In this document: positions 25,577 to 38,272 of the stretch, one piece after another
Position numbering within the stretch: the first letter of the stretch is position 1
How the letters are laid out: each line of letters starts with the position of its first letter
DNA from: Paracoccus aerodenitrificans
GTDB taxonomy: Bacteria; Pseudomonadota; Alphaproteobacteria; Rhodobacterales; Rhodobacteraceae
Length of the DNA: 64,000 nt
Direction: 5' to 3'
Assembly: GCF_027913215.1 (NCBI RefSeq)
Contig: NZ_CP115784.1
Coordinates: 62,001 to 126,000 of the forward strand
The notes under the pieces: model-generated
Databases searched by the model: none
What the model saw: the letters and a program-made list of their open reading frames with translations, nothing else
What the model was told of the DNA's origin: nothing
Program-made: the position numbers and the translations under genes

Positions 25577-26053
25577 TCACCCGACCTTGTTCAAAACATC
25601 ACCTTCCATCTCTTCGGTGTCCCGACCTTCAAGCCCGGCGGTCACCTTCTTCAGCAGGCGCATGAACTCTTCCTGCTCCTCAGGTTCCAGCGGGGCGAGT
25701 ATTCGTGCCTGCGCGGCGCGTACGGCTGGCTTGATTGTCTGGACCACAGATTCGCCGCGCTCGGTCAGGCGCAGCAGGCGTGCGCGGCGGTCCTCTTCAC
25801 GGACCTCGCGAGTCAGGTAGCCCCGGCTTTCCAGGCGGCTGACCACACCGCCAATTGTGACGCGATCATAGGCGACAAGTCCGGCCAGCGTTGCCTGATC
25901 GATCCCTTCCCGCTGCGCCAGCGTCAGCAGCGAGCCGTATTGAACCGGCGTCAACTCGAAACCGGCTTCCCTGGTTTCGGTTGCGAAGGCGCTGACGGCC
26001 AGCTGGTGAAGTCGGCGGATCATATGTCCGGGAAGATTGCCAAGTGTGTCCAT
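25577..26053 (-). CDS. MarR-family regulator of the gentisate operon
   Basis: The 158-residue protein is one winged-helix MarR domain: ELTPVQYGSLLTLAQREG, recognition helix region DRVTIGGVVSRLESRGYLTRE and the wing REEDRRARLLRLTERG. Helices at both ends should dimerise. It is divergent from the gentisate dioxygenase gene across 107 bases holding a long palindrome, so it most likely represses its own and the catabolic promoter until an aromatic ligand binds. The ligand is a guess from context. Confidence 0.88.
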   Translation of the reverse strand: MDTLGNLPGHMIRRLHQLAVSAFATETREAGFELTPVQYGSLLTLAQREGIDQATLAGLVAYDRVTIGGVVSRLESRGYLTREVREEDRRARLLRLTERGESVVQTIKPAVRAAQARILAPLEPEEQEEFMRLLKKVTAGLEGRDTEEMEGDVLNKVG

Positions 26054-26094
26054 GCTGTAAAATTGTTCCCTCTTCGGGCGATGACAAGAAATTT

Positions 26095-26131
26095 ATTGAT
26101 AAGTATACGTTTCATTAGTATACATATCAAT
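26095..26131. promoter_or_regulatory. 37-bp palindrome holding two overlapping divergent promoters (MarR operator)
   Basis: Arms ATTGATAAGTATAC (26095-26108) and GTATACATATCAAT (26118-26131) match at 13 of 14 positions around a nine-base centre. The plus strand reads TTGATA (26096-26101), 17 bases, TATACA (26119-26124). The minus strand reads TTGATA (26130-26125), 17 bases, TATACT (26107-26102). Predicted leaders are about 30 bases to the dioxygenase and 42 to marR. A bound MarR dimer would cover both promoters. Confidence 0.75.
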
Positions 26132-26160
26132 ATGGCGATTCGTGAGGGAGGACGCTGATC

Positions 26161-27237
26161 ATGGACAATGCGATGCAACCTGAAGACACGCCCGAACTGC
26201 GGCGGCTTTATCAGGGGTTCAAGGATAATCACCTTAATCCGCTCTGGACGCAGATCGGCGATCTGATGCCGGTGCATCCGCGCCCCAAAGCTGTCGCGCA
26301 TGTCTGGAAATGGTCGGAGCTTTATCCTCTGGCCAAGGAATCCGGCGATCTCGTTCCCGTCGGCAGGGGTGGAGAGCGGCGCGCGATTGGTCTTGCCAAT
26401 CCCGGACTGGGCGGTGAGGCCTATATCTCGCCGACGCTCTGGTGCGCTATCCAGTATCTCGGCCCACGTGAAACCGCGCCGGAGCATCGGCATTCACAGA
26501 ATGCGTTCCGCTTTGTGGTGGAAGGCGAAGGGGTCTGGACCGTGGTTAACGGCGATCCCGTGCGAATGAGCCGCGGTGATTTCCTGCTGACGCCTGGCTG
26601 GTGCTTCCACGGCCATCACAACGATACCGATCACCCGATGGCGTGGATTGACGGGCTGGATATTCCCTTCAGCTTCCAGAACGATGTCGGTTTCTTTGAA
26701 TTCGGCGCGGATCGTGTCACCGATTACGCAACGCCCCGCTTCTCGCGTGGTGAGCGTCTGTGGTGTCACCCCGGATTGCGCCCCCTGTCGCAGCTTGAAA
26801 ATACCACCGCCAGCCCGATCGGCGCCTATCGGTGGGAGTTCACCGATGCTGCCCTGACCCAGCAATTGCTGCTGGAGGATGAAGGCCATCCGGCGACCTA
26901 TGCACAGGGACATGCTGCCGTCAGATATGTGAACCCGACCACTGGTGGCGATGTGATGCCGACCATCCGCGCCGAGTTCCACCGGCTGCGCGAGGGGACC
27001 GAGACACAGACCCGGCGTGAGGTCGGATCGACCGTGTTCCAGGTCTTCGAAGGCAGCGGTGCCGTTGTGATGAACGGTGAGACCAGGACACTTGAGAAGG
27101 GCGATATCTTCGTGATCCCCTCATGGGTTGCATGGTCCCTTCAGGCCGAAACGCAATTCGATCTGTTCCGCTTCTCGGATGCGCCGATCATGGAGCGGCT
27201 GCATTTCGGGCGCTCGATGATCGAGGGTGGTGAATGA
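26161..27237 (+). CDS. Gentisate 1,2-dioxygenase
   Basis: The enzyme opens the gentisate ring with O2 and Fe(II) to give maleylpyruvate. The 358-residue protein is a two-cupin (bicupin) type. The first cupin carries the iron ligands H109, H111 and H150 (PEHRHSQNAFRFVVEG and GWCFHGHHND). A second cupin (about 260-345) ends GDIFVIPSWVAWSLQAE. It is the first gene of the gentisate operon and overlaps the next by four bases. The neighbouring fumarylpyruvate hydrolase, GST-type isomerase and 3-hydroxybenzoate 6-hydroxylase support the substrate. Confidence 0.93.
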   Translation: MDNAMQPEDTPELRRLYQGFKDNHLNPLWTQIGDLMPVHPRPKAVAHVWKWSELYPLAKESGDLVPVGRGGERRAIGLANPGLGGEAYISPTLWCAIQYLGPRETAPEHRHSQNAFRFVVEGEGVWTVVNGDPVRMSRGDFLLTPGWCFHGHHNDTDHPMAWIDGLDIPFSFQNDVGFFEFGADRVTDYATPRFSRGERLWCHPGLRPLSQLENTTASPIGAYRWEFTDAALTQQLLLEDEGHPATYAQGHAAVRYVNPTTGGDVMPTIRAEFHRLREGTETQTRREVGSTVFQVFEGSGAVVMNGETRTLEKGDIFVIPSWVAWSLQAETQFDLFRFSDAPIMERLHFGRSMIEGGE

Positions 27238-27797
27238 GCGATCTCGACCGGGCCCGCGCGGATCTTCGTGCGCAGCAAGGTGCGGGCGCACGGTATGACT
27301 CTGATGCTGCGCCGGCGGAAGCTTTGCATATTGCCCGGCGCGGCGTCGCCTATATGGCGCGGCTGGTCAATCAGCTTGACGAGGCAGCGCTGTGGCAGGG
27401 CTCTGCCCGGCCCGGCTGGACACGCCGCCGGATTATCGCCGCGAATGCGCTTCAGGCGCGGGAAATTGCACAGGCGCTTGAGGATGCAACCGGGCAACAA
27501 GGCGACCGCGCCGATACCAGCGAGGCTGCCGTTAACCTTGCGGAGACACTGCCATCCCGGGCTTTGCGTCATCTGGCATCCCATGCGGATATCCATCTCA
27601 ACGTGGTCTGGAGAGACCTGACGGATGAAGACTGGGATCTGCCGGTGACCCTGTCGAACGGCAGCGTCCCGGCCCGTGAGACAGCGGATCTGCGTGCGCA
27701 GCGTATCTGGCAGGATGCGATGGATCTGGGGGCGGGCGGCAGGCTTCGCGATGTGCCCGCCATCCTCAGGGACCGGATTGCCGGAGAACCACATTGA
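27234..27797 (+). CDS. MDMPI-like (DinB-fold) protein without the usual zinc ligands
   Basis: The 187-residue protein resembles the N-domain of mycothiol-dependent maleylpyruvate isomerase: WTRRRIIAANALQAREIA and a late DLGAGGRLRDVPA, where the family has DLGxG and a D-x-P motif. The family's His in the first motif is Ala here, and the E-x3-H pair before DLG reads WQDAM. All three expected zinc ligands thus look replaced, judged by an alignment from memory. Proteobacteria do not make mycothiol. It overlaps the dioxygenase gene by four bases. Activity is uncertain. Confidence 0.65.
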   Translation: MSDLDRARADLRAQQGAGARYDSDAAPAEALHIARRGVAYMARLVNQLDEAALWQGSARPGWTRRRIIAANALQAREIAQALEDATGQQGDRADTSEAAVNLAETLPSRALRHLASHADIHLNVVWRDLTDEDWDLPVTLSNGSVPARETADLRAQRIWQDAMDLGAGGRLRDVPAILRDRIAGEPH

Positions 27798-28801: not shown

Positions 28802-29500
28802 ATGACCGATACATTGTTTCCCGCCCCTGAATGGCCGACTGTCCCGGTAAAGGGTGCAACGGCCGAGCTGCCCGTCCGCCGCGTCTTCTGCGTGGGCCGG
28901 AATTATGCCGATCACGCCGCCGAGATGGGTGTCGAGGTTGATCGCGAAGCGCCGTTCTACTTCACCAAATCCGCCCTGACGATCCTGCCGAGCGGGCAAA
29001 GCTATCCCTATCCGCCGGGAACCGAGAATTTCCACTATGAGATGGAGTTCGTCGTTGCCATCGGGAAGCCGGCTTTCCGCATTTCCAAAGAGCAGGCTCT
29101 GGACGTGGTCTATGGCTATGCTGCCGGTCTGGACATGACCCGCCGCGATCTGCAACTGGCCGCACGTGCCAAGCAACGCCCGTGGGATCTGGGCAAGGAT
29201 GTCGAAGGCAGTTCCGTGATCGCGGCGATCACCCGCGCCGCCGATTTCGGTGAGGTTGCTGATCAGAAGATAACGCTCAGCGTGGACGGTGAGACCCGTC
29301 AGGATGCGGAACTGTCGGATCTTGTTTGGTCGGTGGCCGAGCTGGTGGCGGATCTCTCGAAATTCTACCATCTTGAGCCGGGCGATCTGATTTATACCGG
29401 GACACCTGCCGGTGTCGGCGCTGTGACGCCGGGTGCCAGAATCGTCGGCACGGTGGACGGTCTCGACCCGGTGGAACTGACCGTCGGAGAGGCAGAGTGA
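28802..29500 (+). CDS. Fumarylpyruvate hydrolase (FAH family)
   Basis: The enzyme splits fumarylpyruvate into fumarate and pyruvate. The 232-residue protein has the FAH-family core: VFCVGRNYADHAAEMG, FYFTKSALTILPSG, the metal-binding E80/E82 in FHYEMEFVVAIG, GLDMTRRDLQ and the late YTGTPAGVG. Several FAH proteins act on other keto-acids, but the cluster decides for fumarylpyruvate. Its stop overlaps the next start. Confidence 0.9.
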   Translation: MTDTLFPAPEWPTVPVKGATAELPVRRVFCVGRNYADHAAEMGVEVDREAPFYFTKSALTILPSGQSYPYPPGTENFHYEMEFVVAIGKPAFRISKEQALDVVYGYAAGLDMTRRDLQLAARAKQRPWDLGKDVEGSSVIAAITRAADFGEVADQKITLSVDGETRQDAELSDLVWSVAELVADLSKFYHLEPGDLIYTGTPAGVGAVTPGARIVGTVDGLDPVELTVGEAE

Positions 29501-30138
29501 TGCGGTTTTTCGGCTATTTCCGGTCCTCGTCAGCCTACAGATGCAGGATCGCCTTCAATCTGAAGAATATTCAGCCGGAATTCGTGCCGGTCAATCTGCG
29601 TGACAAGGATCATCGGAAGGCCGATTTTCTGGAGATGAATCCGCAGGGCCTCGTTCCGGTGCTGGATACCGGCGATGCAAGGCTGTCGCAGTCCCTTGCG
29701 ATTATCGAGTGGCTTGAGGAAACGCATCCCGCACCGGCGCTTCTGCCGTCGGACCCGGCTGCGCGGGCGCATGTCAGGGCATTCGCCCAGATCATCGCCT
29801 GCGAAACTCACCCGCTGCAAAATCTGCGCGTCCTGAACTATATCAAGGAAAATTACGGGCAGGATCAGGCGGGCGCGGATGAATGGTGCCGGAAATGGAT
29901 CGGCGACGGTCTGGCCGCGTGCGAGGCGATTGCTGCCGCGCAGAAACATGGTGGGGGCTTCACCTTCGGAGATACGCCCGGACTGGCCGATATCTGCCTG
30001 ATCCCGCAATTATTCTCGGCGGACCGCTTCGGTCTGGAGACTGCCGCATTCCCGCGTTTGCGCGAAATCCGCGCGGAATGCGACGCGATGCCTGAATTTT
30101 CCAATGCTCACCCGGCGAAACAGCCGGACGCAATCTGA
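29500..30138 (+). CDS. Zeta-class GST: maleylpyruvate (maleylacetoacetate) isomerase
   Basis: The enzyme turns maleylpyruvate into fumarylpyruvate with glutathione. The 212-residue protein has the zeta-class SSSAYR motif (9-14), NPQGLVPVL and SLAIIEWLEE in the thioredoxin half, and a helical C-half ending LREIRAECDAMPEF. ATG 29500 overlaps the previous stop by one base; a GTG at 29497 is an alternative. It makes the MDMPI-like gene at 27234 redundant for this step. The maleylacetoacetate reaction is possible but nothing else here needs it. Confidence 0.88.
   Translation: MRFFGYFRSSSAYRCRIAFNLKNIQPEFVPVNLRDKDHRKADFLEMNPQGLVPVLDTGDARLSQSLAIIEWLEETHPAPALLPSDPAARAHVRAFAQIIACETHPLQNLRVLNYIKENYGQDQAGADEWCRKWIGDGLAACEAIAAAQKHGGGFTFGDTPGLADICLIPQLFSADRFGLETAAFPRLREIRAECDAMPEFSNAHPAKQPDAI

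Positions 30139-37180: not shown

Positions 37181-38272
<1,092 letters not shown>

Follow-up and report, generated by a model that had tools for sequence, protein, structure and literature searches.

The DNA between a marR-family gene and a divergent gentisate 1,2-dioxygenase-like gene of Paracoccus aerodenitrificans holds a near-perfect palindrome, and the question at this locus is whether such symmetry reflects two promoters laid over each other, one large operator, or smaller operators set side by side. The window, that is, the whole analyzed stretch of 64,000 nucleotides, contains the palindrome at 26094–26132, with 15-nt arms (26094–26108 and 26118–26132) that are 93% complementary, including one mismatched pair, and separated by 9 nt. 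Counting arms of 15 nt with at least 14 paired and a loop of at most 20, two inverted repeats of such quality occur in the 64-kb window, compared with a mean of 0.1 and a maximum of 1 in 20 shuffled windows, and the palindrome is beyond chance. The other strong inverted repeat, situated at 37440–37472 with 15-nt arms, 14 paired, and a 3-nt loop, seems to be located within an open reading frame.

On the plus strand, TTGATA (26096–26101) is separated by 17 nt from TATACA (26119–26124), as read from the letters of the window, and the minus strand carries TTGATA (26130–26125) and TATACT (26107–26102) with the same spacer, as also found by the promoter scan. An earlier note on this DNA had described these four boxes within one palindrome, each -35 abutting the -10 of the opposite promoter; the boxes are situated where it placed them, and the coordinates bear out the direct abutment. 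The 37-bp palindrome of that note is real and slightly longer than it stated, and its term "face-to-face" suits the footprints of the polymerase only. The two promoters would be divergent and wholly overlapping, pointing outwards and away from each other, with starts approximately 36 bp apart if transcription begins about 7 bases after each -10. In the 3.56-Mb genome, TTGATA-N17-TATAC occurs once per strand, both times within the palindrome. A direct repeat of period 15 on the same DNA (26096–26110 and 26111–26125, 80% identical) had been overlooked, along with the shorter palindrome on which each of its copies is centered, possessing a GTATAC core and TGAT/ATCA-like flanks.

The palindrome is composed of two overlapping 20-bp MarR-type operators, whose GTATAC cores are 15 bp apart. 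The features of the region are as follows.

26096–26115, no strand: operator 1, TTGATAAGTATACGTTTCAT, core GTATAC at 26103–26108 (pattern match, PWM score 23.9, overlapping inverted repeat I2)
26111–26130, no strand: operator 2, TTCATTAGTATACATATCAA, core GTATAC at 26118–26123, centre 15 bp from that of operator 1 (pattern match, PWM score 23.6, overlapping inverted repeat I3)
26096–26101, plus: predicted -35 of the gentisate-operon promoter, TTGATA, where most tandem relatives have TTGACA or TTTACA (sequence, relatives)
26119–26124, plus: predicted -10 of the gentisate-operon promoter, TATACA, within operator 2 (sequence, relatives)
26125–26130, minus: -35-like hexamer TTGATA, which is the outer half-site of operator 2 and is poorly conserved as a -35 (relatives, scan)
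26102–26107, minus: -10-like hexamer TATACT, overlapping the core of operator 1 (sequence, scan)
26082–26087, minus: TTGTCA, proposed -35 of marR's own promoter, with TTG invariant in 8 aligned Paracoccus loci (relatives)
26059–26064, minus: AATTTT, proposed weak -10 of marR, 5 nt before the ATG, with 3/6 consensus matches (relatives)
26144–26152, plus: Shine-Dalgarno-like GAGGGAGGA of the dioxygenase gene; the longest match to AAGGAGGT is 5 nt (sequence)
25577–26053, minus: marR-family regulator, 158 aa (Pfam MarR PF01047 above cut-off)
26161–27237, plus: gentisate 1,2-dioxygenase-like gene, first of a gentisate/3-hydroxybenzoate cluster (TIGR02272 265 bits, below the 442-bit equivalog cut-off)

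The 158-aa protein belongs to the MarR family (PF01047 35.9 bits against a cut-off of 24.6), and its nearest solved structure by sequence is PcaV (4fht, E 8e-17). The operon on the other side encodes the gentisate dioxygenase-like protein, an FAH-family hydrolase, a maleylacetoacetate/maleylpyruvate-type isomerase, a TRAP transporter, and a 3-hydroxybenzoate 6-monooxygenase. On this basis, 3-hydroxybenzoate, gentisate, or a downstream product are the candidate ligands of the regulator. The cluster also carries two unrelated candidate isomerases side by side, at 27234–27797 and 29497–30138, one with an MDMPI_N domain (mycothiol-type maleylpyruvate isomerase) and the other of the GST/maiA type.

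Operators and promoter strand in the relatives

Relatives of the MarR protein were collected from 125 genomes of the same genus (23 with a match) and 394 genomes of the family, 11 of which gave a match under a stricter cut-off; from the named genomes, which were scanned as well, the best 80 of at least 548 confirmed loci were taken, giving a sample of the nearest relatives rather than a census. The final set comprises 110 loci, following the removal of three without a start codon (L024, L025, and L029) and of repeated genomes (L050–L053 and L055). Among 28 held-out dioxygenase loci, six possess an adjacent divergent MarR gene; since five of these had been part of the set before, only L136 served as a new test. 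One further locus, L158, from the same genus as L031, came from searches at genus level around three additional genomes.

Refinement on the 44 loci that have a gentisate-type divergent gene gave ATGATAAGTATACTTATCAT as the operator motif, with a GYATRC core. A pair of operators at 14–16 bp is present in 46 of the 110 loci, and 44 of those 46 pairs are spaced at exactly 15 bp; two 20-bp units at a fixed spacing kept in relatives, the mark of a tandem MarR operator, are thus found in 44/110 loci. Single arrangements are also common, with 57 qualifying sites in 44 of the 110 loci lacking a second qualifying site within 22 bp, some of them with a weaker partner below the cut-off, and in some loci the sites are situated 36–38 bp apart. 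Allowing one mismatch, the 20-bp pattern has 8 matches in the 3.56-Mb genome, compared with 3 for the backward control pattern, and two of the 8 are the two halves of the palindrome. The single site TTCATTAGTATGCTAATAAA (L049:3425–3444) stops 2 bases short of the start codon of another, second marR in the same genome; this gene precedes an MFS/HlyD-type efflux pair, and the site resembles what a stand-alone MarR operator should look like. As a side observation, the two MarR regulators of this genome share one operator type, and each may bind the sites of the other. Because of the exact 15-bp pairs, the single sites, and the sites 36–38 bp apart, the 20-bp site is taken as the unit and the large palindrome as a pair of such units.

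The outer half-site of an operator and a -35 box differ in their informative bases, the operator motif favoring ATGATA and the -35 box TTGACA. For the strand-bias and symmetry tests in tandem loci, L068 and L073 (spacing 16) were omitted and L008, whose operator 1 is below the cut-off, was added by hand; de-duplication at 75% identity reduced the 45 tandem loci to 34, dropping L004 and L007 among others. With a 1-base shift allowed, the plus -35 is the better one in 30 of the 34 de-duplicated loci, 4 are ties, and the minus -35 is better in none (P 1.9e-9); L007, lost in de-duplication, is the sole tandem locus in which the minus -35 beats the plus one. Without the shift, the bias is weaker (29 plus against 7 minus, with 10 ties, n = 46). 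TTGAC or TTTAC is found on the left in 28 of the 34 tandem loci and on the right in 1, and the promoter-specific C at the fifth base is found in 22 and 0, respectively. Furthermore, across the 79 operator-bearing loci, a strict TTGAC lies 16–18 bp before the operator core on the plus strand in 45 and on the minus strand in 0, and looser -35 hexamers occur in 52 and 9 (43 and 9 of 68 following de-duplication). The right outer half-site is often lost in the relatives.

The operon strand thus carries a conserved -35 at a 16–18 bp spacing, as a tandem operator embedded in a sigma-70-type promoter would, and conservation of both -35 boxes as -35 elements, which nested divergent promoters would show, was not found. 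L134 carries TTGACA and tandem operators before a dioxygenase gene without any divergent gene, a TRAP permease being located upstream on the same strand. The plus-strand bias, the strict TTGAC counts, and L134 together suggest that the block is primarily the promoter of the gentisate operon. The sigma-70-type promoter that the earlier note had placed in the palindrome for this operon is conserved, with MarR-type operators overlapping both its boxes.

The start of marR

Upstream of marR, a TTG at -34 to -36 from the ATG is present in 13 of the 18 loci in which marR faces a close dioxygenase ortholog. In 1000 shuffles of the upstream sequences, the maximum averages 4.2 and is never above 7, and in the real sequences no other position has the TTG in more than 5 loci. 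The best -10 match is separated from the TTG by a 17-bp spacer, with A as its second base in 12/14 loci. The distance from TTG to ATG is fixed, and that from TTG to the operator ranges from 17 to 56 bp, the off-register match of L004 being left out. Outside the motif, the mean identity is 0.31; since the remaining bases are just 31% identical on average, the conserved TTG does not reflect mere relatedness. Among the same-genus loci, the TTG is found in 8 of 9, including the window, and is missing in L012; the corresponding CAA at 26085–26087 is invariant in those 8. L136, found after the prediction, carries the TTG as predicted, and, judged by eye, so does the L031 relative L158. The element is missing in five of the 18 loci (L012, L054, L057, L058, and L066) and is found in just 11 of 92 more distant marR relatives. 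In L012, which has one operator only and lacks the TTG, the match to the dioxygenase is split in two, and the starts that the two parts imply are one base apart, suggesting a frameshift.

A conserved -35 element about 35 bases before the ATG, as a leaderless-type promoter would have, is therefore present in 13/18 loci and in L136, and it suggests that marR has a separate promoter of this type nearer the gene. Because the -35 lies at 34–36 bases, transcription would start at the ATG or a few bases from it, yielding a leaderless-type mRNA. In a start-site mapping study of Sinorhizobium meliloti, a promoter motif with a conserved TTG, a downstream A, and a poorly conserved -10 was derived, and 171 leaderless starts were all at AUG (PMC3616915). 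This Motif 1 resembles the TTG, downstream A, and weak -10 upstream of marR, although S. meliloti belongs to another order of alphaproteobacteria and the marR start is predicted from sequence (PMC3616915); by analogy, these data lend plausibility to a leaderless marR. By way of analogy only, the MarR-type mhbR of Burkholderia xenovorans is transcribed both on aromatics and on glucose (PMC3572157).

The preferred reading, of moderate confidence, is a single gentisate-operon promoter containing tandem MarR-type operators, with marR more likely served by a weak promoter of its own nearer the gene. Computation shows the operator unit with its spacing, the bias toward the plus strand, and the conserved TTG; MarR binding, repression, release by ligand, and the start sites are inferred. 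The plus -35 would be supplied by the outer half of operator 1, and the -10 by the core (GTATAC) of operator 2. One or two MarR dimers on the -35/spacer and the -10 would shut the operon, and an aromatic ligand of the pathway would release the dimers and turn it on. The gene marR would be transcribed from its weak promoter, with the TTG 34–36 bases before the ATG, a spacer near 17, and a -10 immediately upstream of the ATG, so that its mRNA would be leaderless or nearly so. The 15 bp correspond to approximately 154 degrees of helix; hence, the two dimers could bind different faces.

The main alternative holds that one palindrome carries two promoters, divergent and fully nested, which serve the gentisate operon and marR, respectively, with the polymerase proceeding in one direction at a time and MarR closing both; it is considered rather unlikely. 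Both box pairs are present at the ideal spacing, and in the window the minus promoter of the palindrome, with 10 of 12, is the best consensus match and the sole one reported by the scan; the plus promoter scores 9 of 12, and the proposed own promoter of marR about 8. Just 0.9% of the simulated tandem operators reach at least 9 of 12 on each strand, and among the 34 de-duplicated loci this occurs in the window alone. Moreover, among 8 aligned Paracoccus loci, the minus TTGATA is kept in 4, with TTGAAA in one more. In L157, a distant relative, TTGACA is found on both strands (strict pattern) around a tandem GYATRC block at 1337–1369, which no other fetched locus displays; the block stands between a GST-type isomerase gene (609–1292, minus), followed by a MarR gene, and the dioxygenase gene. 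It appears to be used both ways, for the dioxygenase gene and the divergent isomerase gene. The minus-strand score of the window, the rare simulated matches, the minus TTGATA in Paracoccus, the missing TTGs, and L157 are the reasons why two nested promoters retain some probability.

However, TTGAC as a minus -35 occurs in 0/79 operator-bearing loci against 45/79 for the plus strand, the minus TTGAT also resembles an operator half-site, and marR has another conserved candidate promoter. The earlier note had assigned marR to the minus promoter of the palindrome and had proposed the keeping of both boxes in relatives sharing the gene pair as a check. The plus boxes are kept, and the minus -35 is lost across the wider set, being partly kept in the closest Paracoccus and not beyond close relatives; with the TTG element conserved instead, that assignment is not supported. 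In the window itself, the minus promoter may work as well.

Where it is needed on both sides, this geometry can probably function in either direction. It is possible, although doubtful, that in the Paracoccus lineage the block turned into a true two-way promoter as its outer half-sites drifted to TTGATA on both strands, the older leaderless marR promoter being kept for basal supply. Were a two-way reading true, a 35-bp block would set a mutually exclusive choice between repressor and operon, and L157 would be an independent two-way case with catabolic genes on both sides. As an observation in its own right, L157 looks like a better candidate than the window for a true two-way nested promoter.

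Symmetry of the operator pair

The earlier note had also treated the whole palindrome as one MarR operator. Such an arrangement would require that the whole 35–39 bp palindrome be read by one MarR dimer, or by an obligate complex of four subunits, with the GTATAC boxes as half-sites. The nearly fixed spacing, 44 of 46 pairs (14–16 bp) being at 15, is in keeping with it, as is a composite arm symmetry of 7.74 of 13, which per base is at least that of the individual sites at about 5.5 of 10. The symmetry of each site about its own center is modest in tandem loci (means 5.5 and 5.6 of 10). However, in the 34 de-duplicated tandem loci, the composite symmetry of real pairs (7.74 of 13) is the same as that of pairs mixed between loci (7.74). 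Given this equality, nothing points to selection on the large palindrome itself, and its symmetry was discarded as evidence of selection. The window is exceptional in this respect, with a composite symmetry of 12 of 13 that just 0.6% of mixed pairs match.

Single sites and sites 36–38 bp apart in relatives, the single site before the second marR of the same genome, and the frequent loss of the right outer half likewise argue against one large operator, which is very improbable; a single 37-bp operator was rejected on the single sites and the mixed-pair control. Under the preferred reading of two tandem operators 15 bp apart, the large palindrome would be a consequence of setting two short palindromes at that distance. 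That the palindrome has no regulatory role and its promoter matches are accidental, a simple scan giving a mean of 0.4 promoter-like matches in shuffles of this 301-base region, can practically be dismissed, since the palindrome lies far above shuffles and conservation of the operators and the plus promoter across alphaproteobacterial loci refutes it.

Known switches and significance

The palindrome between the gentisate and marR genes is an ordinary kind of bacterial switch. In Escherichia coli, the bio operator is accompanied by overlapping divergent promoters, both of which are real. It is likewise a long palindromic operator located at divergent genes; however, it is one operator, and its regulator comes from another family. 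BirA binds this operator, which is 40 bp in length (PMC4382993). The arrangement belongs with MarR operators overlapping promoter boxes at divergent genes, such as the CouR operator between couN and couR in Rhodococcus jostii, which also serves a MarR-type repressor of an aromatic pathway (PMC4737184). CouR utilizes one operator, with mapped starts 23–54 nt before the start codons (PMC4737184), whereas two tandem operators are present here and the promoters, if both real, would be fully nested.

The SlyA site TTAGCAAGCTAA is also a MarR-family inverted repeat with TTA/TAA flanks; operator 2 contains TTAGTATAC, and the site of the genome's other marR contains TTAGTATGCTAA (PMC5797941). In contrast with the GCAAGC core of SlyA, the core here is GYATRC, and the flanks extend the dyad to approximately 20 bp (PMC5797941). 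In QacR-type binding, two dimers occupy two overlapping palindromes, and the 154 degrees predicted here are near the 130–145 degrees between the QacR dimer axes, but QacR belongs to the TetR family and the joint binding of two MarR dimers would follow by inference only (PMC6018408). The bidirectional promoters of Warman et al. similarly combine symmetric DNA, RNA polymerase in either orientation, and mutual exclusion (PMC12825309). Those promoters share one -10, with starts mostly 18, 10, or 23 bp apart; here, the -10s at 26102–26107 and 26119–26124 are separate, placing the block outside that class, with predicted starts approximately 36 bp apart (PMC12825309).

Literature searches found no paper on this MarR regulator, which is not a claim that none exists, and searches on face-to-face promoters and on overlapping MexR/TtgR promoters returned nothing on point. 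For MarR regulators next to gentisate genes in Alphaproteobacteria, the motif above, with its GYATRC core and 15-bp tandem, offers a testable operator. The locus also offers a caution: where a single sequence seems to show two promoters in mirror symmetry, tandem palindromic operators may have produced the pair incidentally, and comparing the half-sites for the one that keeps the promoter-specific base can tell a real promoter from its mirror image.

In addition, the 5' leader of the dioxygenase gene, at 26140–26142 and neighboring positions, contains a TCG within a CGATTCG-like sequence. This TCG is invariant in the 8 aligned Paracoccus loci, and CGAATCG or CGAGTCG is also visible in the dioxygenase leaders of L031, L032, L065, L075, and L136.
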